The notes under the pieces are model-generated. The model was given only the letters and a program-made list of their open reading frames with translations, made no database searches and was not told the origin of the DNA. This document shows, piece after piece, positions 805 through 64,000 of a stretch of DNA of 64,000 bases. The stretch is from Lasiodiplodia sp. COLG20. Lineage: Eukaryota; Ascomycota; Dothideomycetes; Botryosphaeriales; Botryosphaeriaceae. A program made the translations under genes and the position numbers. The DNA lies in NCBI GenBank assembly GCA_009801085.1, contig VNWV01000001.1, forward strand, positions 1,364,001-1,428,000. Direction: 5' to 3'. Position 1 is the stretch's first letter; every line of letters begins with the position of its first letter.

Positions 805-2380
805 ATTGGTAGCTTCGTGTCAATATAAGCCTATGATTTTATTATGTTTGTTCTTGCAACTCGTGAAATCCATGCGCTGGCCACTTTTGTGACCATTTGC
901 ATATAAGTCCCTTGATGCGGCACCTCCGAATACCCTCAGAGTCCATGGAGAAGCCAGTACCGTCTAGATAAGGAAATTGCAGTTCGTCTAGAGCACTTCC
1001 TTGGCTACCTTGATCCCGTCCAGCCCCAGCTTCTTCTTTCGCGTCATGGTAGCAGTTTTGGTCTCTTGGAATGGCACTTCCCAAGCAGGAAAGGCTTGGC
1101 CATCGTATGTTTGCAACTGCGATCTTTCAGAAAGACTGAAGAGCCGTCGAAGTTGGGCCACGGGCAGTGACGGACAGCTTCCCTGGAAATGTTCCTTGAT
1201 TTCACACTATGAAACCCTATTCAACTTGCTAGGAATATCATAGGCTACGAGATTCCAAACATGAATAAACATGTAAACGTTGCAGGAATTGCAAGTCTTC
1301 GCAAAATGCGCTGGCATAATCTTGAAGTCCGTGATGCATGGTGCAAAGGGCTTGCGCCCCATGATGTTCCTTCTCTAATTCTTGAATCCGTACTTGCAGC
1401 ACTCATATTAATTGCCTTCTAGGAAGTAATTCCGCCAATTCTGACACGAGTGTGATTTCCATTCATATGGGCTGTCGCTATTTCCTCCCATCACGATTGA
1501 CCCGCTCTTTGAACTGAGCTTCCCCTCTGCCCTTCACCATACCCTCAGCATGAACTTCACGTCTCTCATCCGTTATGATGCACCTCAGTCTATTATTCCA
1601 TCGATTCTTCTCTAGCTTTGCTGTCTCCACAAACTCGTGTTTGGTCTCCGCGCACCAGCAACTCGAGTTCCGCTAGGAACGCAGCCACTGTACAGTTCTA
1701 CTCGGAATCGCCCTCTCTTCCCTACAGAACTGAACCCAATCCAACTCGATACCGCAACAACTTCAAGTCAGAGCCACCACCATCACACCATTCTAACCGA
1801 TCCCCGACAAAAGAGTCATGGGTCATGCAAGAGTGGCTTCACACAAAGACTTCGAACGGCAGCCGGATGGCGTGGTGAAGATCGGGAGAAGACCTGCATT
1901 CATGAAAGAGGTATTGCAGAGTATTTTGACGTCCTGTTCGACCTCCAATTCTCTCATATTTTGCCGCTTGTACCTATGCCCCTCCCATGCCGTTCCATTT
2001 GAACGATCACTGTCTCTGACCTATCCGGGAATCCAGACCTCAGCTACCCTGGACCATCGCCTTTCGTCGACGAGTAACTCACAGCCGCACAGCGGAAGGA
2101 AAGTCCTACGCCTCAGATCACGACGCGAGTGTCGTGAGGGAGCATTTTCATCATCGGTCTGGTTGTTTCCCAATGCCAACACACTTGCATCGCGGTACGT
2201 TCAATAAACCCTAACCCGTCTCCAATGATGAAAACAACCTTTCTGAGCGGCAGAGAGTCATTATGTGGGGCGACTCTCTGGCACGCGATGTGGACTTTAA
2301 AAAAAGTCAAGCATATGACCACACTGAAGAGACTGAAATGTTTCTGGAGAACGTTAGCATCACGGAACGAGAATCATGCT

Positions 2381-2455
2381 AACCTACATGATGGAGAAGA
2401 GAAGGGGAGCGGGTTGGTGGGTGGGGCTCCCCTTCTCTTCTCCATCATGTAGGTT
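2381..2455. repeat. perfect 30-bp inverted repeat with 15-nt loop
   Basis: Bases 2381-2410 (beginning AACCTACATGATGGAGAAG) are the exact reverse complement of 2426-2455. The loop is the G-rich 2411-2425. A third partial copy, GATGGAGAAGAGAAGGG, lies near 2808 without a partner arm. The structure is seen directly. Whether it is a transcribed hairpin, a foldback transposon remnant or a replication-slippage product is not determined. Confidence 0.85.
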
Positions 2456-3095
2456 CCCACCACGGCGGCCACGGGCCCACGGCGGTTGTGACGAAAGAAT
2501 GGCGGGGCCCGGCTTACAAAGACAAAATGAGCAAATTCACGAGTATGTGGTTCATCTTCTCTCTTTCGCACATTCTGTGTTGACGTTGTTGTAGCAGCCA
2601 ACTGCGATGGCCTTCCAGCTCGAAGTCTGCAACATCAGGGTCTTGCCTTCGCTCCTACTCCGCCCGTCACTTCTCCGATGTCTTCATCAACACAAAGGTC
2701 TCAAGACTATCGGCAAAAGGAATCTCCTATACAGAGGCAGTGGAAGGGCGAGTACTGTTATTGCGGACCTGGAGGATGGCGGTGGATCGGCGGTCGTGAT
2801 AGGTTGATGGAGAAGAGAAGGGTGTGGTTGTTGAACCGTGGAATCATGAAAGGGGTATGAAGAAGACTTACCTCGGAGTGATTAAGAAAATGAACTTGCT
2901 ACAGTGCTGGGGCAGCTATTTATCTTCTTCTCGTCAGTCAGGGTCTGTCAATGTACCGTGGCTCTGCGTAGGCTTGATTTGCAATTGTGGTTCGCTCTAG
3001 CCTCATTTGACCACAACAAGATTTCCGCTATTGAGTTGGTATATCGATACGTCGTGAATTTGCTTTTTTGTGCTTCAAATGGCTGTCTAAATATA

Positions 3096-3185
3096 TGATG
3101 AGTAGCTGAAGCAATCGTCCGGATGCAGATATGGGGTTAAGAGTTATTCGTTCACGTCCGGACAATAGCTTAGACTACCTACACA
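3096..3185. repeat. short foldback MITE-like element (copy A)
   Basis: The left arm reads GAGTAGCTGAAGCAATCGTCCGGA. The right arm, reverse complemented, reads AGGTAGTCTAAGCTATTGTCCGGACG. The two arms make up almost the whole element, with only about 20 nt between them. A TA lies just left of the element. The same terminal sequence recurs at 11841-11921 and 19968-20391, so this is one repeat family. There is no coding capacity. Confidence 0.7.
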
Positions 3186-3846
3186 AGTCGAGCATCGCTT
3201 CTCGCAGAAATTTCAAAGGACTGTTTTTCCTGGGCACTAATTACCGCCTGTTCCAACACCCTCTTTGCGCTGCCTTTCGGCTGATACCCATTTGTACTCG
3301 ATGTGTTTTCGGCAAACTAATCAGCTGACATAGACTTGGTGATTGAACGGATACAGGCCAGATCTCGACAGTCCATCCTCGTTCAGCCTGTACATTCTTC
3401 CTAATGATGAACGCTGTGGCGTGGCTCGATTGGATAAGCAATAGGTAACTGCTGGCGCACGAAATATAGAAGGGCGGAAACTTAGACAGTGGCAATATCA
3501 TCAATATACCAATGCTACACCAATATGCGTTCCAACGCGGGATATCATACAAGCTCTCTCCCCAACATAAACCAGAAATGAAGCAGAAAATAATACCGAG
3601 CTGACTAGAATACAAATGTAAAAATCCACGAAGCCATTGGCAAGAGGAAGTGTCCGAAGAAGCGAAAAATCAGTGCGTAAGCATTGCTGAACGGCCGTGA
3701 CTCGCATCACATGCAACCGAACCACCCTCCTTCTTTTTCTCTTTGTTTCACGCCACCACCGATAACGCACAAAACACCTTTATGCACCATCATCCTCTCC
3801 TCATCGACCGTAAAATACGCACAGAACGCCAAGACCCATTACTCGT

Positions 3847-6451
3847 CTAGATGATCTCCAAATCGTCATCATCGCTACTTGGCGCCTTCGTCGTGACCGC
3901 CACACTCCCCATGCTCTCCCGTCCAGGCTCTCTAATGCCCTTGCCCTCGATCATCAACCTAGCTTTCTTCTTGGGGCTGCCCTCCCTGCTCCTGCTCCGC
4001 TCAGGCAGATTTAGCACACCGCGTGGCGGCAGTTGAGAGTGCGGTTGCTGCTGCTGGTGCGGCTGCCTATCGCGACGAAGCATATCATCGATGCGGCGAG
4101 TGCTGACGAGCTTCTTGGACGGGCTGAGGAGGAGGTCGCGCTTATTGGCGCCGCCCCAGCCCATCGGTTCGGCTGTATGGCGGGCAGAAGATGAAGCAGT
4201 GGCCTGAGAGCTGCTGCCCAAGGTCGTCGTGCGCTTCCGCTTAACGGGATTGAGAGACACGTCGGACGCGCGTTTGCCTAAGAGGCCAAGGGAAGCGGCG
4301 TCGACAGGTTCTGGCGCATCTTGTGTGCGGGTGAATGGGATATCGTAAGCGCCCGCAGCGCCGGTGGCAGGCTGTCGGCTGCTTCTCGAACTGTCGGCCG
4401 TGGAGGAAGTTCCCGGTCGGCTACTTGCCTTGACCCTCATGTACTCGCTGCCCGCTTTGCCGCCCATGCGACTCAGCTTGTCCGCAAGCTCGCGTTCCCG
4501 CTCTTTCTCGGCCAGCCGTTTGCGGTGTAGCTCCTCACGGCTCATACCACGGTTCAGGGCGTCATCGTCCTGGTCCAATCGATTCGCTGCGCTTCTGCCG
4601 CTCATATGTTTCGGCAAGACATACATTGTCTCATGAAGGTAGCTGTCGTACTGTTTGTTGGTCTCTGCTGGGCGAGCACCGTTCCTACCAGCAAGCCCCC
4701 TCCCAAATCCTGCCATGGTATTCACCTCCATACGCCCGCGCTTGGACTTCTCAACCTGCAGATGCACGTGATACTCACAGAATTCGGTTTTGCGTTTGTC
4801 GATCCAGGAGCCACACTCCTGCCCATCCTTTTTGACACTCTTGCAGAAGCCGAGATCACGAGCAGTGCCAATCTCCAAGATGGTATCTTCGGAAGAGCCG
4901 AGCTTCAAGGAGAACTGCCCTGTTCTTTTATCACGTGGAGGAAAGACTCCAGGGTTCAGGATGGCAATTAGTGTCCCAGGCGTCAGCTTCCAGAAGGTTG
5001 TGAAGGCCGTGCCGAAGAGGAAAAGATCGATTTCCCATTTGAAATCGGTCAGGTGTAATACCATGAATTTTGACTTATTTGGTCCATCGTCATCATCTGG
5101 ATCTGCAGTCGAGGCCGTCTTGTGGGCTTTAACATCTCGTGGCGAGGATTTCGATGCAACCACTCCCAGAACAACATAATCTGCTTCATGGTCCGGGGGA
5201 TCGTAATTAGGGCCTTTAACAGTTGCAAGCAGCCGCGCGAGCGGATACAGCTCTTTCTGATCAAGCGCACGTGCAACAATGTTATGCGAGAGGAGTCGCT
5301 TGGAGAGATGAATCCCGGTGAATGGTTCGAAAGACGCACCCTCATCTGGAGTGGATTCAGGCAATCCAGAGAAACTAGAGTTCTTTCTAGGAGGGGCATC
5401 TGCACTAGCAGACGTTTGCGACGCAGAACGGTGGCGAGATGTTGGCCTTGTCACATTTGCGGACGAGTCGAAAGAGTTGTTAGTGCTCGAAGACTGCTTC
5501 CGCCTTAGGAAGCTTGGGCGGGCGGGTTTCTCAAATGTATGCGAACCACTTCCATTTGACAGTTGTGACGGGGTCCGGTCGTCCTGGCTGCTGCCGGTAC
5601 GCTCCGCTGCACCCAATCCAAAGCCGCGGCTTCTAGCCTTTTGGATCCTTTCATCCTTCTCTAGCTTCTCATTGTCTCTCAGCCTGCTCTCAGCCAGCCG
5701 TTCACTGAACGATTTCGGTCTCTCTATTGCTGAGTCCCGCGCGGCAGTTCCGCTGGGCCCGCTAAACGAACTTGGCCGGTCTGAGCGCGCATTCGATCCG
5801 AGTCGCGAAGAAGTATTTGAAGTGTCTCGAAACAAGGCAGGCCGTTTAAGGGAGACGTCTTGCGCGCGGAGGCCCTTGTCGATCCCAAGTTTCACACGTG
5901 CAGGGGAGGTAGGATCAAGCGGAACTCGGCGGTCGGCGGAAGGCGACAGAGGGACTTGAACGTCAGATTGAGCCCTCGTGCGACCTGCTGCCCGCGGCTG
6001 TGCTCCAGGTGCCGTAGTATTTTGAGGCCGCGGGCTGAATATATCACGCCTTTCGCTGTTCTCAGCTTCCGAATTGGCCTGCTTCGCCTTGGCGGCCTGC
6101 AATTTCTTGAGCCGGAGGCGAGCCTCGATAGCCTGAAGCTTGAGCTGCAGAGTCTCCTCGTCGTCATCCTCCTCAGTGTCACCCCCTTCTATGCCGTCCG
6201 ATAAGAGCTGCGAGGCACGCGACCCGTTTCGAGGGCTGGCCATGGCGGGCGACGATTGGTTGTGACGGCGCTGCTCCCATTTCTTGCGGCCGCTAGGAGA
6301 GCTGATGAGGGCCTGGTGGGGAGACTTGGGTGGCCAACTTGGATCATTTTGGGACGGCGCTGAGGAGCGGTTAGCATGTGGAAGGGGCGGACGGCACAGG
6401 CACGGCACAGGCAGGCATACCGTGAGACATGGCGTCGTCGCTCTTGATCAT
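3847..6451 (-). CDS. MCM10: DNA replication initiation factor Mcm10
   Basis: Proposed CDS: complement(3847..6359, 6421..6451), 847 aa. The 61-nt intron (GTATGC...CTAAC...CAG) joins MIKSDDAMSH to APSQNDPSW and gives a continuous frame. Starting inside exon 2 would need a less natural N-terminus. Role in the family: Mcm10 binds the CMG helicase, ssDNA and polymerase alpha at origins in the nucleus. Seen: a disordered, charged N-terminus with a predicted coiled coil (EEETLQLKLQAIEARLRLKKLQ); the central OB-fold (FMVLHLTDFKWEIDLFLFG... LNPGVFPPRDKRTGQFSLKL); directly after it the Mcm10 CCCH zinc finger (GFCKSVKKDGQECGSW... FCEYHV); and a basic, disordered C-terminus with NLS-like KRKR and KKKAR stretches. 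The family call is strong; the exact start is inferred. Confidence 0.92.
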
Positions 6452-6840
6452 CGGCAGGCCTTCCAATGCGCCGTAGTGTGGAGGAACGCCCAGTTCGCGC
6501 ACACCATGTCCGGGACTCGAGACGCTGCTGGGCTCTGGCCGCTCGGATCGGGTCGTGTTTTGGTGCGGGCGGAGTGTTTGTTTTGTGCTACGGCGGAAGT
6601 GGTTTCGTGCTGCGTCTAAGGCACAAGGATGGCGCTCTGGACGAGCGACAGGGCCCTGGCGGTTAGCGAGACGCGCCCGCTTGTGCCTGGCGCGCGTCAG
6701 CTCCACCGACGCGTCTTCCGCGCTACCTTCTCCATCACCCTTGCTCAGCATACACCTCACCCGCCAGCAGCTCTGCAGACTTCTGAATTGGAATCTAGAC
6801 TATCATTGGATATCTCTCTATCGTTTTCCCTCATACAAAA
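6452..6840. promoter_or_regulatory. divergent promoter region MCM10 / RNase H2B
   Basis: 389 bp separate the inferred MCM10 start (minus) from the RNase H2B start (plus). Both genes act in DNA replication and genome maintenance, so co-regulation from this shared region is plausible. I see no convincing MluI-type (ACGCGT) cluster or TATA box. The function is inferred from geometry only. Confidence 0.4.
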
Positions 6841-8172
6841 ATGAAAACGCGATCAAAAAAGCAGCCTACCAAGGACACCGGGACCGAAAAGACGGCATCA
6901 GCAACCGGTCCTGCGCCGCCCCCCACCGACCCCAATCCTCCTAAGCTTTTCATCCTTCCGAAAGATACCTCCTCGCAAGCGCGCATAGTTACAATTCCCA
7001 ATCCTGCTTCGTCGACGGCAAATCGTTACTTCTGCTGCCCAAACAAGGGATTCTACGAGTTTACCCGCGTCGCTGCGCCGAAGAGCACACCGAGAAGCTG
7101 GCTTCTTGCGCCCCAAAGGAATGGAACATCTGAAGAGAAGAATGAGGCCGATAAAATGGAGGTCGAGGAGACGGCAAATTCGCTGCGCAATGGTTACACG
7201 CTGAAGAGCCAGGATATTTTTGTGGCTACACCAGTCGACGCCCTATTCCTTGTATTGCCAGCGCTTTCTCCTTCATCGAAGGAAAATGAGAAGCAGTTGT
7301 TCCTCTCTGTGGAAGATCATATCGATTCTCTGGGAAGCTCATCCGTTCAGCTGAGAAAACTTCTATCCAATGAAACTTTGCGGGCAAGAGTAGAGCAGAG
7401 AATGGCAGCCGCATGCGACACAGTCGACGCAGGCGATGAGAAGATGTTCCGACTGTCCATCGAGAAATTGGGAAAGGAGCTGCTAGCCAAAGCCGAACGC
7501 CTTGTCGCGCAAGGACTTCCTGCTTCAATGGAAGAAAAATTCGTCCGCAAGGCCCTGGAACGGCCTGTCATGAGCATAAAGCGCGAAGAAACTACCGTAA
7601 GCCTCACTTCGGAAGGCGCCGAAGCTACAGCAACAGAAATTGTTGAGAGCGGAGCCACAACCGGAAGTACAACAGATGTGGAGATGACAATGGAATCTCA
7701 GAAATCGGAAGATCATGCAACCACAGCCGCTACTACCGATTCACAGACGACCTCTGCAAAACAGGAACCAATTGATGCTCCCGAGGGCATACCCCATCTC
7801 CTACGCTTGCGCACTGCGATTGACTTCATGTCATCTTCGTATCTGCCGCCTAGTGTTCGCGCGCTCCTTCAATCGACTTGGTCCTCAAACAGCATAGTGG
7901 ATTTTAGCCCGCTAGATAAGCATCTGCAGGATCTTGCCGCACTCAGGTCCGAAGCCCAGACGTTGCGCTCTTTATCCGACAACATTACCCGCAAGCGCGG
8001 CATGGAAGACGAGGAAGCCGCTGCGATTCGCGCAGAGAAGAAGCGTAAGAGGGACGAAGAAGAGACAAAGAAGAAGAACCAAAGCCGCGGTGTGAAGCAA
8101 TTGGCGAAGGCAGACACATCGGGGATGAAGAAACTCAGTTCGTTCTTCACTAAAGTTCCGGTCAAGAAATGA
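6841..8172 (+). CDS. RNH202: ribonuclease H2 subunit B
   Basis: 443 aa, single exon. The ATG directly follows a CATACAAAA leader. Role in the family: non-catalytic subunit of the trimeric RNase H2 that removes ribonucleotides and R-loops from nuclear DNA and links the enzyme to PCNA. Seen: an N-terminal triple-barrel-type region (KLFILPKDTSSQARIVTIPNP, GFYEFTRVAAPKSTPRSWLL, GYTLKSQDIFVATPVDALFLVLPAL); the helical segment with DHIDSLG...LRKLLSNETLRARVEQR; a long acidic/Thr-rich linker; a second helical block (PHLLRLRTAIDFMSSSYLPPSVRALL); and a C-terminal KKLSSFFTK that resembles a PCNA-interacting (PIP) box. The symbol follows the yeast subunit, and orthology is by domain pattern. Confidence 0.9.
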   Translation: MKTRSKKQPTKDTGTEKTASATGPAPPPTDPNPPKLFILPKDTSSQARIVTIPNPASSTANRYFCCPNKGFYEFTRVAAPKSTPRSWLLAPQRNGTSEEKNEADKMEVEETANSLRNGYTLKSQDIFVATPVDALFLVLPALSPSSKENEKQLFLSVEDHIDSLGSSSVQLRKLLSNETLRARVEQRMAAACDTVDAGDEKMFRLSIEKLGKELLAKAERLVAQGLPASMEEKFVRKALERPVMSIKREETTVSLTSEGAEATATEIVESGATTGSTTDVEMTMESQKSEDHATTAATTDSQTTSAKQEPIDAPEGIPHLLRLRTAIDFMSSSYLPPSVRALLQSTWSSNSIVDFSPLDKHLQDLAALRSEAQTLRSLSDNITRKRGMEDEEAAAIRAEKKRKRDEEETKKKNQSRGVKQLAKADTSGMKKLSSFFTKVPVKK

Positions 8173-51145: not shown

Positions 51146-53016
51146 TTAGTTGACAGGTTTGTATGTGACGGGCAATAGCGCTGGACGCCACAGTCCGAGT
51201 AGTTTTGTATTTTTATCAAAGTCCACGCCTTCATCACCCAGTGTCCAGTCGAATTGCCAGACTAGGTTGGAAATGACCAGCCTGCAAACAAGGATAAGCA
51301 TTCACTCGAAGAAGAACTGTAAAGAGGGCATACCGCATTTCCAAATATGCCAGATGCATCCCCAAGCATGCTCGCGGCCCCATTAAGAAAGGCTTCGATG
51401 CCTCTTTGACATCGTTCTCAAATCTGCTGTCGTACAATGGGTGGTCTTTAGGTAGCCATCTCTCCGGATGAAACTTCTCAGGCTCTAGGAAATACCGTGG
51501 ATCACGGGCAGTGACGTTCTCTGCTACAAATACCCTTGTCTGTTATACGACACATCAATTAGTGTGACGACTCGTCGCAATGTGATTCCACTGCTTACCC
51601 CTTTTGGAACCCATACACCATCGACCATGGCGCCCGGAGAAATGCGGGGTAGTCCAAATGACGCTGGAGACGTGAGGCGGAGGGCCTCCTCAATGACTGC
51701 GTTGAGATAGCGGAGAGTCTTGGTACTCTCACTGTCAATTTCACTGCGATCCTTGAATGCGTTGCGGACTTCATCTTGAAGCACGGATAACTTGGCGGGA
51801 TTTCGAAGGAGATGGTAAGTGGCTGCCATGAGGGTCAAGGAAGTTGTTTCGGATCCAGCACCGATGAGTGTCGGGCCCTGCAATGCAAGGACTTCTGGGT
51901 CAAGCTGTTCTGAGCTTCCTCCGACGAGATGGTTGAAAATGTCCTCGCGGTCTGTTGCACCCTTGGCAATACGTCGCTTCGCCATTTCCTGGCTCATTCT
52001 GACATGGTAAGCCCGCATCTCAGCGCTCTTATTGTTGGCCAACAGCCGTTTGAGCACAGAGATGACTGCTTTGGGCTGCCGCCGTAAGATGTAAGCAACA
52101 GCCAGGGTGGGCCCACTTCCTTGGAGCATCGTAAGCCACTGGTCGGGCTCGCCTGTTCACTTTAATCAGACTTTCTTCATTCAAGAATCAATGAATGAAG
52201 CTCACCTCGCTCCACGTTTTTCAGTGACTCGCCGAATACCAAATCGGTGATGACATCAAATGTGAACCACAGAAACCACCTGTTCATATCCAAAGGCTGA
52301 CCACTGCGCGCCTGAATCTGCTTCACCAGGGTGTTGACGTATCCCATTATGATATATCCTTGAGATCTCAGAGTCGGTGGGCTGAAGCCGGGGGAGATCA
52401 TCTTGCGAAGCTCTTGATGCTTCACCGGATCAACTTCCGTTCCCTTTGGCCAGTTAGTCTCTCTTTGCGCTCTCCGAATAGCAGGATTTCCTTAAAATGG
52501 ACGGGTATTTCACATCCGACTGAAGATAGAACGTGCTACACTTCTTAAAGAAATTGGGCGCGGTGTATTGGCGGGTGGCGTAGATATCCTTGATGGACTG
52601 GACTCCGGAGAAAGAGAGTTCATTTGTCGCAACGCGGACCACAGGCCCTGTTCAGAGACAAAAAAAAATCTTAGATATACCTTCATAGCCTACGGACGAC
52701 TTGACTTACCGTATTTTCGGTGGAGCGCTTCTATGTCTCGATGCCAAGTGCCGCTCAGCCTAGCAGTATGAGCTTCAGTCATTTGCTCAGGGCGCTTAGA
52801 ACTACTCACCAGTGAGAAGCCATCCAGAAATCACCAAGTGCTGCGGTCCAGGGGCCTGGGATGCGGGAAAGCGGGTGAAAGAATACATTGTACGAAACTT
52901 TGTACAATATCTATAGGTCTTCTGTCAGATTCTTCTGGCTAGGCGAAGGGTCGTTAGCTTACATAGCCAAAGACGCACGAAAAAAAGGTGAGCACTGTTG
53001 CGGAAGGGGAGGCCAT
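51146..53016 (-). CDS. cytochrome P450 monooxygenase, multi-exon
   Basis: Proposed CDS: complement(51146..51281, 51334..51539, 51599..52152, 52206..52443, 52514..52647, 52710..52759, 52810..52910, 52963..53016), 490 aa, eight exons. Seen: an N-terminal membrane helix (SATVLTFFSCVFGYILY), FFHPLSRIPGPW, WHRDIEALHRKYGPVVRVATNELSF, VDPVKHQELRKMISPGFS (C-helix region), FTFDVITDLVFGES, the I-helix motif LIGAGSETTS, the K-helix EEALR (ExxR), PRISPGAMVDGVWVPKG, PEKFHPERW, and heme loop FLMGPRACLG with the ligand Cys at 51366-51368. All key residues are intact. It is ER-anchored and needs a reductase partner. The 70-nt intron at 52444-52513 is the weakest junction: the flanking reading frame differs by one base, and a single-base frameshift would join YPSIL to a GNPAIRR-type sequence instead. 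It is a likely tailoring oxidase for the neighbouring polyketide. Confidence 0.87.
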
Positions 53017-53559: not shown

Positions 53560-54753
53560 ATGGCAGCTACCAGTGCTAAACCTTATGAGCCATCAAATGC
53601 CCCTTTGAGCGGTTTTCAGCTCTACTGGCGCTTCGGTTTCGCCGGAGCTGTTTGCTGCTCCCTTACTCATGGTGCCCTAACTCCAGTCGATGTGTAAGTG
53701 TCCCAGAATACCTCAGCGGATGGTCGCAGGGCTGCTCTGCTTGGTTCCCTCACTCCGAACTTGCCCACATCTTCGTATTCCCCGAAGCTGACGTCCGTTC
53801 ACCGAAGTGTAAAAACATCAATCCAGCTCGACCCAGCCAAGTACAACCGCGGCTTGATTGGTGGATTCAGGCAGATCATCGGTGAGAAGGGCTTCGGTGC
53901 CGTCTGGACTGGCGTGGGGCCCACCTTCGTTGGGTACTTCTTCCAGGGCGCTCTGAAATTCGGCGGATACGAGTTCTTCAAGCAGCTGTCCATCGACACG
54001 CTTGGATACGAAACAGCTGCTAGGAACCGCACCGCCGTCTACTTCGCCTCCTCCGCCGCCGCCGAGTTCGTCGCCGACATTGCGCTCTGCCCACTCGAGG
54101 CCACTCGGATCCGTCTGGTGTCCGACCCCGGGTTTGCCGACGGCCTTATTGGAGGTTTCTCAAAGCTTGCAAAGACCGAGGGTCTGGCCTCGTTCTACTC
54201 CGGCTTCGGTCCCATTTTGTTCAAGCAGTACGTAGAACAACAGGTCCACCCCTGCCCCTACCCACCAACTCACTTCAACGTGCCTTCCCGTCGTCCACAG
54301 GATCCCGTACACCTGCGCCAAATTCGTCGTCTACGAAAAAGTCGTCGAGGCCGTGTACAAGCGCGTCGACAAGCGCAGCCTGCCCGACGCCGCCCACACG
54401 GCCGTCAACCTCGGCTCCGGCCTCGTCGCCGGCTTCGCCGCGGCGCTCGTCTCGCAGCCCGCCGACACGATGCTCTCCAAGATCAACAAGGTCAAGCTGC
54501 TGCCGGGCGAGAAGGTCTCTGCCCGCTTGGTCCAGACTGCCAAGGAGCTCGGCGTGCGCGGCTCCTTTACCGGCGTTGGGCCGCGTCTGTTCATGGTGTG
54601 AGTGAAGAAGCAATTGCCCGCGTAAACCCGTGGCGGCTCGCTGATGATGAATCTTCTAGTGGAACTCTCACGGCTTTCCAGTTCGCTATATACGGCGACC
54701 TGAAGAAAGCTATTGGTGCGGTTGGTGGCATCGAGATTGCTCCAGTGAAGTAG
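53560..54753 (+). CDS. MIR1: mitochondrial phosphate carrier
   Basis: CDS: join(53560..53693, 53808..54227, 54301..54597, 54660..54753), 314 aa, close to the 311 aa of yeast Mir1. It imports phosphate with protons across the inner mitochondrial membrane for ATP synthesis. Seen: three tandem carrier repeats with the signatures PVDVVKT (split by intron 1), PLEATRIRL and [102 protein letters not shown]. These are specific to the phosphate-carrier subfamily. Introns are 114, 73 and 62 nt. It lies between the P450 and the polyketide synthase on the opposite strand. Nothing suggests an altered, resistance-type paralogue. Confidence 0.95.
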
Positions 54754-55177: not shown

Positions 55178-58100
55178 TCAACCAACCACCAACCCCGCCA
55201 CCGCCTCCGCCAACTCCACCCGATCCATAAAAGCGTAATGATCCGAATCCAGCCACAACTGCGCGCGACGTCGCTCTTCCTCATCGCGCGGCAGCTTCGA
55301 CCTCGCCACCCAAACGGGCCCGTCGAAGGCCGGCACCTTGCCCGCGGCGTGGAAGGCGAGGTAGCCGTCGTAGGCGCGCATGTTGGCGGCGAAGAGGTCC
55401 GTCAGCCGCTGCAGCGGCGCGCCGCGCAGCGAGGGCGGGATGAGCGAGATGGTCTCGTGGGTGGTGCGCGAAATGAGGTCGAGGTCGAAGGAGGACTGTT
55501 GCTTCTCTTTACCATCGTCCTCGGGGTTCTTATTGACCAGGCCGACGCGCTGCAGCGTGCTGACGATGTCGGCGGTGCCGATGACCTTGGCGCCGCTGGC
55601 CAGCAGCAGCGCGCCCATCAGGCGGATCGAATGCGCGCCGACGCCCTCCTCCGCATCATCTCCAGACTCCAACCTACACCCCAGCACCTGATCCATCGAA
55701 ACGTCAGTCGTCGGCCCGCCGTCCAGCAGCAACAGCCGCTCAGGCTGTTTTCCGCCCCCCTGCTGTTCCAGCATCCTCGCCATCTCCCACGCGACGCAGC
55801 CGCCAAACGAGTACCCCATCAGCTGCACGCGGCGGCGGCACGTCCCGTCAGCACGGCGCCCCAGCAAACCCTCGCGCTGCAGGACGCGGATGTAGTGAGC
55901 CGCCATCGACGAGACGCTGTCGGCCGGCACGTCGTCCGTCTGGCGCACGCCGACGACCCTGAACGGCAGGCGCGCCGCGAGGTGCCGGACGTGGTGGACC
56001 TCGCCGGCGCCGCCGTGGATGACGATGGCGACGGGCGTGTCCGGGTGGCCGTCGTCGGGGACGGCGTTGAGGGGGATGAGGTTTTGTTGTTGCTGCTGCT
56101 GCTCAACCTGGTCTTCTGGTGCTGTGGTGGTTGCTCCGCCGGTGCGGAGGAGCTCCTGGCGGACGTGCTGGCTCAGCGAGCTCAGCGTGGGGAAGCCGTT
56201 GAGCGCCATGGGCGAGATGGCGAGCCCCGGGCCGAAGGCGGCGTTGAGCCTGTTGCCCAGCTCCATCGAGCTGAGCGAGTCGACGCCGTGGTCCTCGAAG
56301 CGCGGGTCTGGTTCGGACGATGGTATGCTCGTCCCCGTCACGTCGGCGAGGATGCTGCGGATCGTCTCGGCGATGGATTCGAGACTTGGCACGGCTGCTG
56401 CTGCCTGTTGGGTGGTCGGCTTGGGGGCGGCGGACGTTGACTTGCTCTTTGTTGACCGTGCGGTCTTCTTGGCTGGTTTCCGCTTGGGCGGCTCGAGTTG
56501 GCGTTGGAGGGCGAGGTTCTTGCGGTACGTGGAGAAGAGCTGCCGGTGTCCGGACTGCTGCGGGCTGTTGACTGCGTCTGTCTCTGTGCCGTCACTGTTG
56601 CCCAAAAGCTTGGACCATTGGATGGGAGAGCAGAGAAGGTAGCCGGAATGGTGGATACAGCCAGCGGTGGCGGCAATGGCAGCGCAGATGGTCCGGTACG
56701 CGAGATCGGGCGAGATGCCGCCCAGTCTTTCAATGGCTGCGCGGCCGGGCGGTTGCCTCCGCAGTGTTCCTAAGCCGAGCACCATTCCCCAGGCAAGGCT
56801 CATTGCCGGCAGTCCCTCATGGCGCCACTGGGCCGCTAGTGCATCGAGCGCGGCGTTGGCAGCGCAGTGGTTGCTCTGTGTGGGACTTCCGAGAATCCCA
56901 GCAGCTGAACTGAAGAGAAGGATGAAGTCTGGTTGTGGCACCAGCGCCTGGCGCAGGGTGATGGCTCCGGTAACCTTCGGTGCAATGACGGTGTTGAGCG
57001 TCTTCTTGGATTGCTGACGGAAGGGTGCGTCGTCCAGCAAGCCTGCCGCATGGATCACACCTCGGATTTCTGGGCAGCCTTGTTCCCGCAGCGAGGCTAA
57101 TGTTTGCTCTAAAGCGGTGCCATCGCCAACATCGCATGGAAGGTGTTCTATTTTGGCTCCGATGTTGACGGCTGCGGAATGGAGCTGATGCCAGAGATGA
57201 ACATCGTCCTCTTTTATCGCTCCAGATCGGGATAGCAGGATGAGATGGCGCGCACCAGCATCCATGAGTGTCCTGGCGGCTACGAGTCCTAGGCCACTGT
57301 TTCCGCCAGTGACCAGATAAGAAGCTTCTCCTCGGATCATTGTTGACGTGTCTTTCGGGCAGTCTTCCGTGGTCGAGCTGTTGCGAGCTACGATAATGGC
57401 TGAAGACTCAAGTGCTCCATCCAGACGATCAGCACGGTCGACTGACACAAAACCGTTACTCATCAAGAGGCCACCCCAGGTGTCGAATGACAATAGCGGG
57501 TAGTCGGGTCTCAGTTCAAGGTCCTCAAACCTCCACCAACCATCAGTGAAGCCAAAGGTGCAATCAGAGATGGCAGATTGGCGGGTAGACTCGAACAACA
57601 GCATGGCGCCGGAAGGACGCAGGAGAGAGTGCATGTTGGCCACCGTCTCTTTCATCCGTCGCGTGGCGTGGATACAATTGGCAGCGAGCACGATGTCGAA
57701 CTGCGCGGGCTGGAAGCCCTGCGCGCAGGGATCCACCTCGATGTCCAGAATGTCAAACACCATGGATCCGCTGGCGGGCAAGCGGCTCGCGATGTCCCGT
57801 TTCGCCTTCTTGAGGAAGACACTGCTCACATCTGTGAAGACGTACTCGAACTCGACGGACTCCAGCACGGGAAGCAGCTTGGCGGTGGTGGCTCCGGTTC
57901 CGGCGCCAACCTCGAGGATACGTAGCTTCCTGCCGTTTGGTCGATCGCGCAGGAGAGAGGCGAGCGTCTCCTTGAGCACCGTGTTGTAGTAGTCCAGTGC
58001 CAATGATCCCACGTAGAAGCCCTCGACCACTTCCATGGCCGCTTCCGAGAAGAGAAGTGACGGTGCCTCGACGCGGCCCCTGAAAAGGTCCTCTACCTTT

Positions 58101-61100
58101 CCTTGCATGAGACCTACCAACCGTGCCTCAGGACGCACCTCTGGCCAGGCCTCAATAATTTCTTCAACTCCAAGATCCTTACCACCCTCAGCCCTCGCAG
58201 CTTCATGATGCGCATACCTGCCGTATAACTTCCGCCACCGGCTATCCACCTCATTCTCCGCAAGACTTCCAGCCGCTGCGCGAAGCTGGCGAGCGGCAAA
58301 CCGCGCCACATGCTCGATACCCTCCTGATACCTCGGCTGATCGAAAGCAACAGGAACCTCAGGCAACGAGAAGCCTGGGGAAGTGTTCGCGGCCGCAACC
58401 GTACGGGGAATAGTCGCCGCCGAATCAGGCATCATGCGCAGCACGACCTTGCCAATGTGCTTGGCCGTGCGGACGTAGCGGAAGGCATCCCTCAGCCGTG
58501 TCGGGTAGTCGAACGCGGTGACGGGCGGAGGCCGCACGCTGCCGTCCGCCACACCTTCAGCGAGCCTTGACAAGAAAGCATCCATCAGGTCGACGGAGGC
58601 GGAGCCCGTGACGTCCAGGTCGACGATTCGGTAGGCGATGTCGGGACGCGCCGCCGCGACCGCGTCGTGGCTCCAGATGGCCACCTTGCCCGTCTCGATG
58701 AACTTGCCGCCGGGCTTGAGGAGTTTCAAGGTTTCCGGGATGTAGTCGCCGGAGAGGGTGTTGATGGCCACGTCGACCTTTCCTGCAACGTGCTCCAGCT
58801 CCGCGGCGAACGCGCGCGCGTCCCTCGTCGTCGAAACCATGCGGCTGTCCACGCCCAGTGGATCGCGCAGGTACGCCCGCTTCTCCTCCGAGCCGGCTGT
58901 GGCGACGACCCGGGCGCCGCGAGCCTGCGCGATGCTGATGAGCAGGTGGCCCAAGCCGCCCGTGGCCGTGTGCACCAGCACCGTCTGCCCCGGCCGCAGC
59001 TCTGCCAGCTCGACCAGACAGTGATACGCCGTGGCGAAGACGGTGGGCAGCGATGCGGCGTCGACCATGGAGAGTGCCTCCGGCAGCTTGCGGACTAGGC
59101 GGGCGTTGCAGCGGACGACGCTCCGCATGCACGCCTCGGCCATGCCGAACACCGCGTCGCCTGGCGATATATGCGTAACTCCAGAACCGATAGCCTCCAC
59201 GGTACCGGCGAAGTCGGCGCCCAGGGCGCTGCTGCCGTGCTGCAGGCCGCCGGCCGCGAACAGGACGTCGTGGAAGTTGATACCCACTGCTCCGACGCGG
59301 ATGGACACCTGATCCTCACCGAGCTCGGCGAAACCGTCTGGCTCGATCAGTGGCACAGCCTCGAGCGAGTCCAGTCCCGTTGTCGCGGTGGCCATGGTGG
59401 GCACGTCGAGCTCGCAGAGGCGGTCCGGCACCATCTGAGGCGTGAACCACGTGTCGGTTTCAGGATCCCACGCCAGCTCGGAAATAGGGCGACTAGAGGC
59501 TTTCAGCCTGCCCAACAGCTTGAGAACGGCTTCGTGGGAAACAGCTGCATCTGACTTGCCCGCCACGAGGTCGACGAGACCGATGCTTACGGCCCGGGTG
59601 TCTTCGAGGACGACGGAGCGCATCAAGCCCCACAACGCGGCCTGCTGCGGGTGGGCGACCGGAGCCACCTGGCTGGCACGAGTGAGTATCCAGAGCGAGG
59701 ACTTAGCCGAAGTTCCGGGAGATGCGGCCTCGACTGCAGTAGTGACGAGCTCCAAGGCGGACGTGCACAGATCCGCCGCTGCGCTGGACACCGAGGGCAG
59801 GTAGTAAAGCGTCTGCGGAAGGCCCTCCTCGCTGGCTTTGTGCTCTCTTAGAAGCACCACCGTGACCGACGACGGCAACTTCGACGCAAGAGCGTCTCGG
59901 TCTTGCTCATCCTCGACGACGAGAACGCAAGGCTGGGCAACCGCCTCCAACTCAGGAGCAGTGGGCATCCTCGCCCAACAGACGGTATGCAGCGGATCAG
60001 CGAGCTTGATCTGGCTCTGGCTCTGGTCCCGCTTTCCTTCTCCCTTCGCTCCCGCGGGACGGAAGACGATCTCCTCGATGTCGAACACGGCGTTGCACTC
60101 GTCATCGAAGACGGAAAGCCTGGCCTTGACCTCGGCGGCGCCCACCGAAACCACCTCCGCCGTCGCGACGAACTCGCGACTGCGGCTCTCGCGCGGGCGG
60201 GGCGCCCAGAACCTGACTCCCGTCATGGCGAAGGGCAGGAAGGTTCGGGCAGCGCCGCTGCGGCTTTGCTCCTCTGCAGTCGACAGCTTCGCCAGCACCA
60301 CGGCGGCGCAGAGCTGCATGGCCGAGTCGAGCAAGGCAGGATGGGCGAGGAAGCCGTCTTCGCCGTTCTCAGCGAGGCTGATGTTACCGTATGCCAGGGC
60401 GGCGGCGCGCTCGTCGTCGTTGATCGAGGAGGTGTAGGCGTGTTGCAGGCTGCGGAAGAGGCCGGTGTAGCGGATTCCGACGTCTTCGAGTTTCTGCCAC
60501 ACGGACGTCATGTCGACTGCATGTTTACAAGCGTCTTGGTGCCGTCGAAGCCGGTCCAGCATGACTTGTCGTTCGTCCGCGGACGGGGAGTCTGCAGGTC
60601 CTTTGAGTCGTCCGTATGCTGTGATGTGGGACTCATCATCTTCGTCGTCAACGCCCGCCCATGAAATGGTGAACTGGCCGTCGGCTTCGTGGGCGATCGA
60701 CATGGTCTTGGAGCGGGGTGCTGACACGGTGAATGGTGCTGCGAAGACGATTTCTTGAAGATGAGCCGACGGCGAAGGTCCGCTACCGGCGGCAACGACG
60801 GAGGCAGCCAGCTCCACGAGCATGGCCCCAGGGACAGTGGGAATGCCCCTGACAACGTGTTGCTCCAGCAAGGCGAACAGGCGGTGCCCGATGAGCACCT
60901 CGTGCTCGCCTCCCATCGTCAATGCGCTGTCCCCGGCCGGAAGACGGCCAAGAAGCGCGTGCGAACCTCCCCTACGCAGCGGGAAATGGTTGCGGGAGAA
61001 CACATGGCGCTTCCGCGGCACCAAGCAGCGCTGAGACGCGCTCGCCGCCTCCAGGACGATGTGCGCGTTGGCGCCGGAGAAGCCGAATGAAGAAACACCG

Positions 61101-64000
61101 CACCTGAGCTCCGGGCCGGAAGACGAGCTGGGCACCAAGCCGACGTTGCTGCCCGATCCGGGGACGTTGACCTTGAAGCCTTCGAAATCGAGGTGGCGGT
61201 TGAGCTTCTTCAGATGTGCGATTGGAGGCAGCACGCGGTGCCTGAGGGAGAGAACGGCTTTGACGAGTCCAGCAACGCCGGCTACACCCTCTAGATGGCC
61301 GAGATTGCTCTTGATGGCTCCCAGGTGCAGAGGAGCGGACCTGTCCTCCTGGGCCGTCGGCGTGCCAAAGACGCTCTTAAGCGCGCTGAACTCAATGGGG
61401 TCGCCCAGAACCGTGCCAGTCAAATGGCCCTCAACAAACGCGATAGACGCGGGACTAACACCAGCATCCTCGAGAGCACGCTTGACAACCCTCGCCTGCG
61501 CAGGGCCATTGGGCGAAGTGAGGTTAACCGTCGTCCCGTCATGCCCAATCGAACTACCAAGAATATCGGCATGGATGTACCGTCCCTGCGCCACCGCGTC
61601 CGCGCGCCGCTGCAACACCACAGCGACGCAGCCCTCGCCGCGCGCGAAGCCGTCCGCCCCGTCGTCCAGCGGCCGGCACCGCTGCGAGGCGCTCAGCATG
61701 CCGGCGGCGCACTCGGCGACGAAGGCGGCCGGCGACATCATGACGTTGACGCCGGCGACGACGGCCGCGTCGCACTGGCCCGCGCGGAGGGCGCCGACGG
61801 CCGTGTGCAGCGCGTAGAGCGACGCGCTGCACGCCGTGTCGAGGGTGCACGATGGGCCTTCTAGGCCGAGGACGTGGCTCACGCGGTTGGACAGCACCGC
61901 GGGGGAGGCGGATGAGGCAGTGAAGGCGCTTGCGCCGGCTCCTCCTCCGCCGCCGGCAGTGAGGAAGAATTGGTCGTAGTTCATGAAGCCGACGAACACG
62001 CCGATGTTCTGGCCGCGCAGGCTGTCGCGGGTGTAGCCGGCGTCGGAGAGCGCCTGGTAGGAGACCTCGAGCAATAGTCGCTGGTTCGGGTCCATGGTGC
62101 GTGCTTCCGCGTTAGAGATGCCGAAGAAGCTGTTGTCGAACCACTCAAGCTGGTCTGGCCTGAGGAAGGAGCCCTGCCTAACATACGATCTTCCGGCTGC
62201 CTTGCTATCTGCTAGTTCAGTCTTGGGGGCGTAGAAGTTGTCATCAAGATCCCATCGAGAAAACGGTATGTCACGGAAGGGATCCTCGTCTGAGAGCAAC
62301 AAGTTCCACAGGTCTTCGATAGTGTCGGCGCCAGGAAGCCGGGCGTCCATACCCACAATCGATATGACCTTGTCCACGACCTGCGGCGCATTGCGGATCA
62401 TACAAGATATGTTTGGTGCAGGGCTTTGGATCTGTTGCTGTGGAGAAGTATCCACTGTCGAGGCGGCCGGTGCCGGCGGCGCCACAGGCTGCTGTTCGCT
62501 CTCATTCATAATGCCCATGAGTTCCGGCAAACCTTCGAGATACTCCTGTAGTCGCGCTAAGGTGGGGTAGTCGAAGACCAAGGATGCCGAAAGTTTGACA
62601 CCAGCACCCAGGCTCGACTGTAGACGGTTACGGAACTCAATTGCCGACAGAGAGTCCATGCCAACGTCGAAGAAAGTTGACGAAGCGCTCGGCATCCTAG
62701 CACCAACTGTAGCCTCGACGCAGCTTTGTATCGTCTCAAGTAGGCTAATGGCGGCAGTTGCCTGTCTGTTGGACACGGGAATAGACTTTGTTGCCGGTGT
62801 AGTGGCCGCAGGACGGGGCGGAGCGGCCTTCTGAATGACAGAGAATGCACTCACTAGCGATGGCACACGAGTTCTCATTTTGGTGAAAGTGGACCAATTG
62901 AACGGCGAGATGCACATCGGTCCCGACAGTGTGCGAGCGTGATCAGACGCAAAGACGGCCTTCAGGAAGCTCTCAGCCTCCGTCTCGGACACCTGGCCGT
63001 GGCCGAACTTGACGGCAAGTTTATTTGCGCCTTTACGAGCTGCCTCACCAATGCCACTAACGGTACCCCACTGTATGCTCAGCGCTGGCAGGCCGCAGGT
63101 ACGTCGGTAAGCGGTGAAGGAATCCAGGAATGCATTGGCCGCGGCGTGATTGCTCTGGCCCGGCGAGCCAAGAAGCGCGGCGCAGGAGGAATAGATGACA
63201 AACTGGCGCAGGAGAGGCTCGTCAAGGCTGCAAGAGTGGAGATGGCGTAGAGCCTCGACCTTGGCGGCGAATACGGTCGAGATGGTAGCGGGAGTCTGGT
63301 TGCGGAGCATGGCATCCCTCAGCGCTCCAGCCGAGTGGACGATGCCTTCAACCCATTCGCCACGTTCTCTGATGCTAGCAAAGACTTCAGCCACCTGGAC
63401 GCCGTTGCTGACATCACATGCCACCTTGACCACCTGATCGGGCTGAGCCACAGCCATCAGTCTGTCCCACAAATGGGTCGAGTTAGAAGACACCTTTCCG
63501 CTCCGGGAGAGAAGGTAGACCTTCCGGCAACCCCGCTCGATCAAGACGATGGCAGTCAGAAGGCCGATACCACCGGTACCACCGGAGATGATGTAAACAC
63601 CGCGCTCGCCACGCGCTTCGCGCTCACGGTCCATCAAATCATGATGTTCCTGGGAGGAAGCCTGGGCGACGATAACAGCCTGGGACTCGCCAGCCTTGGG
63701 ATTCTCCAGCGTCTGCACCTTGTCAAAGCCCGTCGACAGGAGCAGGCCCTCCCACCGCGCCGCCTCCATAAGCGGGTACTCAGGACGCAGGTCCTTGTCA
63801 TCAAAGCGCCACCAGCCCTCGGTCATACCGAACGACGCGTCCGTCATCGGACTCGGGCGCGTAAACTCCGAGAGAACGACAACACCACGTGGTCTCAGCA
63901 GCTGCCTGAGGTTGGCCATGGTCTCGCTCAGCACGCGCGTCGCGTGTATCACGTTGACCGCGACGATGAGGTCGAACGACGAGCTGGCGAAGCCCTGCAG
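55178..64000 (-). CDS. bimodular AT-less type I polyketide synthase, 5' end outside window
   Basis: 2,940 visible residues in one open frame, open at the right edge (LQGFASSSFDLIVAVNVIHATR). Domain order, residues counted from the edge: partial methyltransferase MT1 (1-115); ketoreductase KR1 (about 130-400, SGGTGGIG); ACP1 (about 410-490, Ser450 in GMDSLSA); KS2 (about 540-975, Cys724 in DTACSAS, EGHLTGT, KSNLGHLEG); DH2 (from His1048 in HVVRGIP, with HPALLDSAMQ); ER2 (about 1530-1860, TATGGLGHL); MT2 (about 1950-2200, LEVGAGTGATTAKL); KR2 (about 2220-2450, TGGNSGLG); ACP2 (Ser2575 in GVDSLSS); TE (about 2640-2940, Ser2731 in GYSFGG, SDHYAF). No acyltransferase fits between KS2 and DH2 (about 75 residues). 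Both KRs have SNH where SxY is usual. No intron is seen. It assembles a reduced, C-methylated polyketide released by the TE; the product is unknown. Confidence 0.93.
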   Translation of the reverse strand: MQGFASSSFDLIVAVNVIHATRVLSETMANLRQLLRPRGVVVLSEFTRPSPMTDASFGMTEGWWRFDDKDLRPEYPLMEAARWEGLLLSTGFDKVQTLENPKAGESQAVIVAQASSQEHHDLMDREREARGERGVYIISGGTGGIGLLTAIVLIERGCRKVYLLSRSGKVSSNSTHLWDRLMAVAQPDQVVKVACDVSNGVQVAEVFASIRERGEWVEGIVHSAGALRDAMLRNQTPATISTVFAAKVEALRHLHSCSLDEPLLRQFVIYSSCAALLGSPGQSNHAAANAFLDSFTAYRRTCGLPALSIQWGTVSGIGEAARKGANKLAVKFGHGQVSETEAESFLKAVFASDHARTLSGPMCISPFNWSTFTKMRTRVPSLVSAFSVIQKAAPPRPAATTPATKSIPVSNRQATAAISLLETIQSCVEATVGARMPSASSTFFDVGMDSLSAIEFRNRLQSSLGAGVKLSASLVFDYPTLARLQEYLEGLPELMGIMNESEQQPVAPPAPAASTVDTSPQQQIQSPAPNISCMIRNAPQVVDKVISIVGMDARLPGADTIEDLWNLLLSDEDPFRDIPFSRWDLDDNFYAPKTELADSKAAGRSYVRQGSFLRPDQLEWFDNSFFGISNAEARTMDPNQRLLLEVSYQALSDAGYTRDSLRGQNIGVFVGFMNYDQFFLTAGGGGGAGASAFTASSASPAVLSNRVSHVLGLEGPSCTLDTACSASLYALHTAVGALRAGQCDAAVVAGVNVMMSPAAFVAECAAGMLSASQRCRPLDDGADGFARGEGCVAVVLQRRADAVAQGRYIHADILGSSIGHDGTTVNLTSPNGPAQARVVKRALEDAGVSPASIAFVEGHLTGTVLGDPIEFSALKSVFGTPTAQEDRSAPLHLGAIKSNLGHLEGVAGVAGLVKAVLSLRHRVLPPIAHLKKLNRHLDFEGFKVNVPGSGSNVGLVPSSSSGPELRCGVSSFGFSGANAHIVLEAASASQRCLVPRKRHVFSRNHFPLRRGGSHALLGRLPAGDSALTMGGEHEVLIGHRLFALLEQHVVRGIPTVPGAMLVELAASVVAAGSGPSPSAHLQEIVFAAPFTVSAPRSKTMSIAHEADGQFTISWAGVDDEDDESHITAYGRLKGPADSPSADERQVMLDRLRRHQDACKHAVDMTSVWQKLEDVGIRYTGLFRSLQHAYTSSINDDERAAALAYGNISLAENGEDGFLAHPALLDSAMQLCAAVVLAKLSTAEEQSRSGAARTFLPFAMTGVRFWAPRPRESRSREFVATAEVVSVGAAEVKARLSVFDDECNAVFDIEEIVFRPAGAKGEGKRDQSQSQIKLADPLHTVCWARMPTAPELEAVAQPCVLVVEDEQDRDALASKLPSSVTVVLLREHKASEEGLPQTLYYLPSVSSAAADLCTSALELVTTAVEAASPGTSAKSSLWILTRASQVAPVAHPQQAALWGLMRSVVLEDTRAVSIGLVDLVAGKSDAAVSHEAVLKLLGRLKASSRPISELAWDPETDTWFTPQMVPDRLCELDVPTMATATTGLDSLEAVPLIEPDGFAELGEDQVSIRVGAVGINFHDVLFAAGGLQHGSSALGADFAGTVEAIGSGVTHISPGDAVFGMAEACMRSVVRCNARLVRKLPEALSMVDAASLPTVFATAYHCLVELAELRPGQTVLVHTATGGLGHLLISIAQARGARVVATAGSEEKRAYLRDPLGVDSRMVSTTRDARAFAAELEHVAGKVDVAINTLSGDYIPETLKLLKPGGKFIETGKVAIWSHDAVAAARPDIAYRIVDLDVTGSASVDLMDAFLSRLAEGVADGSVRPPPVTAFDYPTRLRDAFRYVRTAKHIGKVVLRMMPDSAATIPRTVAAANTSPGFSLPEVPVAFDQPRYQEGIEHVARFAARQLRAAAGSLAENEVDSRWRKLYGRYAHHEAARAEGGKDLGVEEIIEAWPEVRPEARLVGLMQGKVEDLFRGRVEAPSLLFSEAAMEVVEGFYVGSLALDYYNTVLKETLASLLRDRPNGRKLRILEVGAGTGATTAKLLPVLESVEFEYVFTDVSSVFLKKAKRDIASRLPASGSMVFDILDIEVDPCAQGFQPAQFDIVLAANCIHATRRMKETVANMHSLLRPSGAMLLFESTRQSAISDCTFGFTDGWWRFEDLELRPDYPLLSFDTWGGLLMSNGFVSVDRADRLDGALESSAIIVARNSSTTEDCPKDTSTMIRGEASYLVTGGNSGLGLVAARTLMDAGARHLILLSRSGAIKEDDVHLWHQLHSAAVNIGAKIEHLPCDVGDGTALEQTLASLREQGCPEIRGVIHAAGLLDDAPFRQQSKKTLNTVIAPKVTGAITLRQALVPQPDFILLFSSAAGILGSPTQSNHCAANAALDALAAQWRHEGLPAMSLAWGMVLGLGTLRRQPPGRAAIERLGGISPDLAYRTICAAIAATAGCIHHSGYLLCSPIQWSKLLGNSDGTETDAVNSPQQSGHRQLFSTYRKNLALQRQLEPPKRKPAKKTARSTKSKSTSAAPKPTTQQAAAAVPSLESIAETIRSILADVTGTSIPSSEPDPRFEDHGVDSLSSMELGNRLNAAFGPGLAISPMALNGFPTLSSLSQHVRQELLRTGGATTTAPEDQVEQQQQQQNLIPLNAVPDDGHPDTPVAIVIHGGAGEVHHVRHLAARLPFRVVGVRQTDDVPADSVSSMAAHYIRVLQREGLLGRRADGTCRRRVQLMGYSFGGCVAWEMARMLEQQGGGKQPERLLLLDGGPTTDVSMDQVLGCRLESGDDAEEGVGAHSIRLMGALLLASGAKVIGTADIVSTLQRVGLVNKNPEDDGKEKQQSSFDLDLISRTTHETISLIPPSLRGAPLQRLTDLFAANMRAYDGYLAFHAAGKVPAFDGPVWVARSKLPRDEEERRRAQLWLDSDHYAFMDRVELAEAVAGLVVG

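Follow-up and report, generated by a model that had tools for sequence, protein, structure and literature searches.

A bacterial-style multi-module polyketide enzyme appears to be encoded in Lasiodiplodia, with one acyltransferase that probably feeds more than one module

Fungal polyketide synthases (PKSs) are generally single modules used iteratively, and the length of the product is not readable from the gene. A locus of Lasiodiplodia sp. COLG20 raises the question of what kind of enzyme is encoded when one module follows another in a single fungal reading frame, and how the last of these modules is loaded when it has no acyltransferase (AT) of its own. We analyzed a stretch of 64,000 nucleotides (the window) together with the sequences that adjoin it and their relatives. 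Lasiodiplodia appears to have a bacterial-style multi-module polyketide enzyme, one AT of which probably feeds more than one module; for a fungus this would be unexpected.

Architecture of the synthase and the KS2-DH2 junction

The reverse strand of the window is open over the full length of positions 55181-64000 (2,940 codons). The original prediction had read this stretch as MT1-KR1-ACP1 followed by KS2-DH2-ER2-MT2-KR2-ACP2-TE in one stop-free frame and had called for extension past base 64000. When the neighboring contig stretches were joined, the frame was found to continue to C1:1436808, with module 1 and its AT (AT1) upstream and 5,876 stop-free codons in total; the part beyond the window is L010:2-9808 on the reverse strand. 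Two database models start at residue 52 of the synthase, a Met. Pfam, run on two overlapping halves, and domain HMMs built in this analysis from retrieved relatives gave the complete order: a region without recognizable domain, MT0, a possible dead KR and ACP0, then KS1-AT1-DH1-MT1-KR1-ACP1 and KS2-DH2-ER2-MT2-KR2-ACP2-TE. Pfam and the open frame thus agree with the predicted order, and the terminal module has its own TE by Pfam and by our HMMs. The features are listed below; MT0 through MT1 were called by both Pfam and our own HMMs, and 5/5 refers to the synthase and four homologues.

C1:1419181-1436808, (-): complete synthase frame, 5,876 codons, zero internal stops
Window 55178..64000, (-): C-terminal half of the synthase gene, stop codon at 55178-55180; extends 8.8 kb past the window end
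Residues 52-480 (in L010), (-): N-terminal region of ~430 residues without recognizable domain
Residues 720-873, beyond the window, (-): MT0
Residues 1225-1271, beyond the window, (-): ACP0
Residues 1336-1771, beyond the window, (-): KS1
Residues 1803-2096, beyond the window, (-): AT1, the sole AT found in the protein
Residues 2176-2470, beyond the window, (-): DH1
Residues 2845-3000, C-terminal part at window 63809..64000, (-): MT1
Window 63035..63607, residues 3068-3258, (-): KR1, NADPH motif GGTGGIG; NHAAAN, with His for Tyr
Window 62537..62680, residues 3377-3424, (-): ACP1, GMDSL, Ser present 5/5
Window 61037..62368, residues 3481-3924, (-): KS2, Cys-His-His triad in TACSA, GHLTGT and NLGHL, 5/5
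Window 60923..61036, (-): KS2-DH2 junction, the usual place of an AT, 38 residues by HMM borders
Window 60020..60922, residues 3963-4263, (-): DH2, His (QHVVRG) and Asp (DSAMQ), 5/5
Window 58436..59320, residues 4497-4791, (-): ER2, nucleotide motif TGGLG, 5/5
Window 57533..57985, residues 4942-5092, (-): MT2, SAM motif LRILEVGAGTG; lies between ER2 and KR2
Window 56756..57331, residues 5160-5351, (-): KR2, GGNSGLG; NHCAAN, with His for Tyr
Window 56162..56302, residues 5503-5549, (-): ACP2, GVDSL, Ser present 5/5
Window 55199..56038, residues 5591-5870, (-): TE, GYSFGG Ser and DHYAF His, 5/5

The polypeptide holds one AT, two KSs and three ACPs. Like an assembly-line PKS, it strings two or more KS-bearing modules together, and each of them has an ACP of its own; it departs from the single KS-AT-DH-(MT)-ER-KR-ACP module of a fungal highly reducing iterative synthase in having two KSs and an MT between ER and KR. 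The term bimodular, under which the enzyme was first described, was right in that this is a real multi-module chain but too small, as a KS-less MT0-ACP0 half-module precedes module 1. The synthase is more than bimodular; probably it acts as the second of two proteins in a line with eight KSs.

The absence of an AT from the terminal module stood up to Pfam, to our own HMMs and to the length of the junction. The stretch that separates NAHIVLEAAS (last residue 3923) from the DH2 histidine (3984) is 60 residues long, a correction of the earlier count of about 75, and by HMM borders KS2 ends at residue 3924 and DH2 starts at 3963. Pfam gave zero Acyl_transf_1 matches in the window part of the synthase; a hidden AT at the junction is ruled out by Pfam and by length. 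Such close spacing is rare: a DH starting no more than 80 residues after the KS was found for 25 of the 1,092 KS domains examined, seven of which are Lasiodiplodia's own.

For residues 52-480, an identity search by profile comparison and phmmer against local data gave zero matches, and an AlphaFold model of residues 52-1200 was unusable (mean pLDDT 33). Residues 905-1200 look like a possible degenerate KR; the match to the KR profile had a probability of 1.4%, and the best BLAST match covered 66 residues at the MT2-KR2 border (E=0.007). Both KR1 and KR2 have His at the position of the usual catalytic Tyr in all five homologous proteins, and therefore full reduction is not certain. The same replacement occurs in KR-like motifs of P0139, P0152, P0196 and P0212, all four of which have methyltransferase domains in their Pfam lists, and for this reason the His may be a working variant.

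Conserved homologues and a second giant frame

With 4,546 residues of the synthase as the query, the best 120 of 1,491 scored candidates of a protein search (lengths about 2,500-7,956) included four near-full-length homologues: P0121 (95% identity), P0122 (92%), the Lasiodiplodia hormozganensis protein P0123 (92%, covering 83% of the query) and the L. theobromae protein P0124 (89%). Behind these four, the highest-ranking of the 120 was a Neospora synthase with 39% identity over 17% of the query. When the KS2-DH2 part served as the query, the named proteins among the best 120 of 2,817 matches (lengths 1,617-5,145) were bacterial.

The KS2-DH2 junction is common to all five proteins (the synthase and P0121-P0124), which speaks against misassembly, the pitfall that the original prediction had warned of. 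Identity by domain ranged from 85% in the N-terminal region to 99% in KS1, ACP0 and ACP1. KS2 was 93-98% identical among the homologues, and in the four of them the KS2-DH2 gap (residues 3931-3975) was 89-96% and residues 52-725 were 85-94% identical. At 23 positions checked, the expected residue was kept in 5/5 proteins except for the catalytic Tyr of KR1 and KR2, which is His; the check scored motif residues, not activity. Since the catalytic residues checked in KS2 and ACP2 are kept in all five, module 2 looks maintained although it has no AT. The gene models of L. hormozganensis and L. theobromae are without residues 2051-2124 (74 residues, 60 of them in AT1) with identical borders, likely a wrongly predicted intron. 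The automatic names of P0123, P0124, P0241 and P0276 are those of bacterial enzymes (narbonolide synthase PikA1, phthiocerol synthases PpsA and PpsC), and such names on fungal proteins may have hidden them from notice.

The same genome holds a second open frame, at C43:1045-33705 on the forward strand (loci L014-L017), of 10,887 codons with six KSs. By our own HMMs the order in the first half is ACP, then KS_A-DH-KR-ACP, KS_B-AT-DH-ER-MT-KR followed by four tandem ACPs that end module B, and KS_C-DH-ER-MT-KR with two ACPs; the second half continues with KS_D-AT-DH-MT-KR-ACP, KS_E-KR-ACP and KS_F. The DH after KS_A is a weak HMM match (74 bits), and a GFDSL motif at residue 9670 in module E was picked up by motif scan but not by the ACP model. 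All six KSs have Cys-His-His, and two ATs, in modules B and D, stand against these six KSs. The KRs of modules C and D also have His for Tyr. The protein ends in a bare KS (KS_F) without ACP, plus a tail that is alike in the L. theobromae homologue. That homologue comes as two gene models, P0276 (residues 1044-6695, 93%) and P0241 (6917-10887, 92%). Among the best 120 of 2,707 scored candidates, P0242 and P0243 are 53% identical to the D-F part, which indicates that the C43 type reaches beyond close relatives.

Since a bare KS closes the C43 protein and the synthase opens with MT0-ACP0 but no KS, the simplest reading is that one module is split over two proteins. Judged from domain content, the two proteins together are probably one assembly line with eight KSs and three ATs. 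In L. theobromae, P0124, P0241 and P0276 each lie on a contig of 371828 bases, which we take to be one contig. In the genome under study, a scaffold gap of 97 N at C1:1437077-1437173 (L011:77-173) lies 268 bases upstream of the synthase frame, and the C43 contig begins 1,044 bases before its giant frame; a position of C43 in this gap may be considered, as it would fit both distances. A comparison of C43 with the edges of the gap gave a single 22-base match and no usable overlap. The largest form of the proposal, a two-protein bacterial-style line in a filamentous fungus, with eight condensing modules, three ATs that would serve their own and neighboring modules, one split module and a transferred or very old lineage unrelated to the fungal iterative synthases, is tentative, and we put it somewhat below even odds.

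Lineage of the KS and AT domains

The KS set comprised 940 domains from this genome and its database matches, 86 of which were chosen for a likelihood tree; the trees exclude algal and broad fungal sequences, and the bacterial scan covered at least 80 loci. The 86-KS tree placed the eight modular KSs in one group with two of P0124, 16 from P0192, P0197, P0209 and P0223 and four from Neospora (SH-aLRT 97). The corresponding group plus P0172_4 had a support of 97 in a differently sampled 164-KS FastTree, and the same wider group had a support of 100 in a 46-row KS tree. The modular Lasiodiplodia KSs are therefore members of the clade of the AT-sparse KS-DH group from Vibrio, Photobacterium and Corallococcus, taken as the wider group that includes Neospora. 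Branching inside the modular group was weak, and one transfer and several are not separable.

Six other KSs from the same genome, labelled iterative-type because each frame holds one KS, fell apart from the modular group, and three of them (L019-L021) adjoin it at a weak fork (43). In AU tests, which ran on quick 46-row trees with groups named after an earlier tree had been seen, holding the eight modular KSs with all six iterative-type KSs cost 86.7 log units (p=7.96e-5), and holding them with L019-L021 alone gave p=0.004. Placing the modular KSs with the sampled trans-AT KSs gave p=2.4e-5, and the same placement of the five AT-less Lasiodiplodia KSs alone gave p=0.007; here the trans-AT and cis-AT labels were assigned by us according to whether an AT domain was absent or present, and of the KSs labelled trans-AT, P0205 and four from P0139 sit among cis-AT rows in the 86-KS tree. 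Monophyly of the eight Lasiodiplodia KSs was neither shown nor rejected (p=0.127). These tests rejected two placements of the modular KSs, one with the iterative-type KSs sampled from this genome and one with the sampled trans-AT KSs.

The AT tree (68 of 910 AT domains) put AT1 and both C43 ATs with Vibrio-type and Neospora ATs, P0024 and P0131 (support 95) and the four sampled ATs of single-KS frames in another group (support 99). Of 798 KS-AT linkers, 19 were shorter than 60 residues; these belong without exception to Lasiodiplodia, Neospora, P0024, P0192, P0209 or P0223, and as a shared oddity they support the modular group. The Lasiodiplodia frames have both the short KS-AT linker and the direct KS-DH junction; the KS-DH junctions of up to 80 residues are scattered over more lineages than the short KS-AT linkers. 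Against PDB chains, KS2 scored highest by summed score with 7zma (535 bits over two stretches), presumably a trans-AT bimodule, then with bacterial CurL (311) and with lovastatin LovB (7cpx, 247). LovB, which we take to be a single iterative module with the domain kinds KS-AT-DH-MT-KR-ACP, shares these kinds with the synthase.

Taken together, the trees support a KS and AT lineage common to the synthase, the AT-sparse bacterial enzymes and those of Neospora, from which the iterative-type enzymes sampled from this genome stand apart. Nor does the enzyme resemble an altered fungal highly reducing synthase; its KS and AT domains group elsewhere in the trees and AU tests.

Loading of module 2

ACP2 could be supplied from three sources: by AT1 within the polypeptide, by an AT that belongs to the partner protein, or by a transacylase that stands alone. 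We favor AT sharing in cis, since both the C43 protein and the bacterial relatives likewise combine AT-bearing with AT-less modules and since no separate AT was seen among the flanking or C43 ORFs scanned; the loading of ACP2 by AT1 is thus predicted from sequence features. AT1 and the C43 ATs have the FHS motif, which we assume to mark malonyl-type ATs. We hypothesize that the synthase is the downstream protein of a fungal assembly-line type I PKS, and we give this reading, with all of the following steps, a probability of about 0.58. The growing chain would arrive from the C43 protein, whose bare terminal KS would complete the MT0-ACP0 half-module. AT1 would take malonyl-CoA and charge ACP1 and, across the module boundary within the synthase dimer, ACP2 as well, and perhaps ACP0. 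KS1 and then KS2 would carry out one extension each, methyl branches would come from the embedded MTs and not from methylmalonyl, and the TE would release the product as an acid or a lactone.

A different supply, in which a separate enzyme (a malonyl transacylase of mitochondrial type or the AT of another synthase) charges module 2 in trans, seems unlikely to us. A genome search with fabD listed 30 matches, of which one, C34:1431125-1432084 (-), was read as a stand-alone malonyl transacylase; this fabD-like ORF of 366 codons scores 181 bits, below the family cut-off of 260.9, and sits on another contig than the synthase. On account of the large KS-bearing frames 10-28 kb from them, the matches at C2, C6 and C15:61-62 kb were presumed to be of fatty-acid-synthase type. 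The C34 ORF or the AT of another synthase could supply module 2, and an AT in trans is described for the majority of algal multimodular synthases (PMC4661987). Yet Pfam named no AT among 10 flanking ORFs, nor among the three C43 ORFs scanned (outside C43 bases 50,001-77,636), KS2 does not group with the trans-AT KSs (for the five AT-less KSs, p=0.007), and the same polypeptide already has an AT. Were module 2 instead non-extending, with a KS2 that passes the chain on or idles, the protein would be a one-module or iterative synthase with a TE; the missing AT and the Tyr-to-His change in the KRs of both modules would suit this, but the residues of the KS2 triad, DH2, ER2, ACP2 and TE are kept 5/5 in the motif check and KS2 is 93-98% identical among homologues, and we regard the idea as improbable.

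Two further explanations concern the origin of the architecture. A tandem-duplicated fungal highly reducing synthase that lost one AT would account for the overlap in DH, ER, MT and KR kinds with such enzymes and for the weak fork (43) at which L019-L021 adjoin the modular group in one tree. It is made very improbable by the AU tests (86.7 log units and p=8e-5 with all six iterative-type KSs, p=0.004 with L019-L021 alone), by the AT tree, which separates AT1 and the C43 ATs from those of single-KS frames, and by the position of the MT after the ER and directly before the KR, whereas in fungal highly reducing synthases the MT generally stands before the ER. That assembly or annotation joined two genes, or that bacterial DNA contaminates the assembly, we find scarcely credible: the 97-N gap 268 bases upstream of the frame, the G+C content of 0.62 against 0.53 for window positions 1-55000 and the bacterial database names (PikA1) could be cited in its favor, but the junction is common to 5/5 proteins, the contig of 8.46 Mb carries fungal genes in the window (RNase H2 Ydr279, tubulin-tyrosine ligase), and the window and L010, which together hold the whole frame, have zero N.

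Having weighed these, we return to the assembly line with shared ATs and its known counterparts. The AT-sparse PKS/NRPS hybrids of Vibrio vulnificus (P0209), Photobacterium damselae (P0223) and Corallococcus (P0192), together with P0197, share the KS group with the synthase (support 97-100). Their KS1 and KS2 matches listed are 44-51% identical, their AT-less modules have KS and DH within 20-34 residues, their KS-AT linkers are 7-17 residues long, and the three with an AT have one or two ATs per four KSs. Like the synthase, P0192, P0209 and P0223 mix AT-bearing modules and AT-less KS-DH modules in one protein. Unlike the synthase, the hybrids carry NRPS domains in their Pfam lists, and our own HMMs called no MT or ER in them; no NRPS condensation or adenylation family was found in the synthase or in the three C43 pieces scanned (about residues 1-9650). 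As AT-less KS-DH modules beside AT-bearing ones exist in these bacteria, the module type is not new, and of the suggestion that this might be a previously undescribed enzyme type what remains is its presence in a fungus and its scale, which appear new.

Neospora P0125 is, like the synthase, a eukaryotic multimodular enzyme, with KS and AT domains in the same wider groups and a KS-AT linker of 25 residues; five of its KSs have their own AT next, and none was called after the first (split) and last KS. Bacterial trans-AT PKSs resemble the synthase in their AT-less modules, as in module 2, and in the NHAAAN KRs of MT-bearing proteins such as P0139, as in KR1. They differ in that the synthase has an AT in the same polypeptide and its grouping with sampled trans-AT KSs was rejected, and no dedicated AT gene was found for it among the ORFs scanned. 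Algal multimodular PKSs are likewise eukaryotic and have AT-less modules, but in PMC4661987 they are described as almost throughout without an integrated AT, whereas the Lasiodiplodia modules partly keep theirs; this separation is by description.

A 2023 survey places eukaryotic assembly-line synthases in nematodes, dinoflagellates and apicomplexans, Cryptosporidium among the latter, and does not name fungi in the portion consulted (PMC10394414); the genome papers on Botryosphaeriaceae and L. iranensis, as far as their text was available, give numbers of type I PKS clusters and describe none as multimodular. The titles and abstract openings that the literature searches listed, with most subscription papers and bioRxiv outside this coverage, contained no fungal multimodular synthase, nor the known fungal family of exactly this architecture that the original prediction had named as a refutation. 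Plasmid records matched the window half in 3,132 of 72,556 cases, none over more than 80% of it. If the assembly line is real, fungi would join the nematodes, dinoflagellates and apicomplexans (PMC10394414) and the algae (PMC4661987) as eukaryotes described as having such synthases. Their megasynthases would be collinear, readable, perhaps open to engineering and already at home in a eukaryotic host, and would serve as nature's own test of how a single AT can supply several modules in cis.

The surroundings of the two giant frames hold the following genes, by Pfam for the first four, with housekeeping genes farther off from the synthase.

L011:1186-2730, beyond the 97-N gap: P450 frame
Beyond the 97-N gap: DUF7025 frame
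Window 51524-52129: piece of a P450
Window 53698-54750: mitochondrial carrier
L017:5145-6344, (+): FSH1-family serine hydrolase frame, 1.4 kb after the C43 giant frame

These neighbors would suit a fungal biosynthetic cluster.
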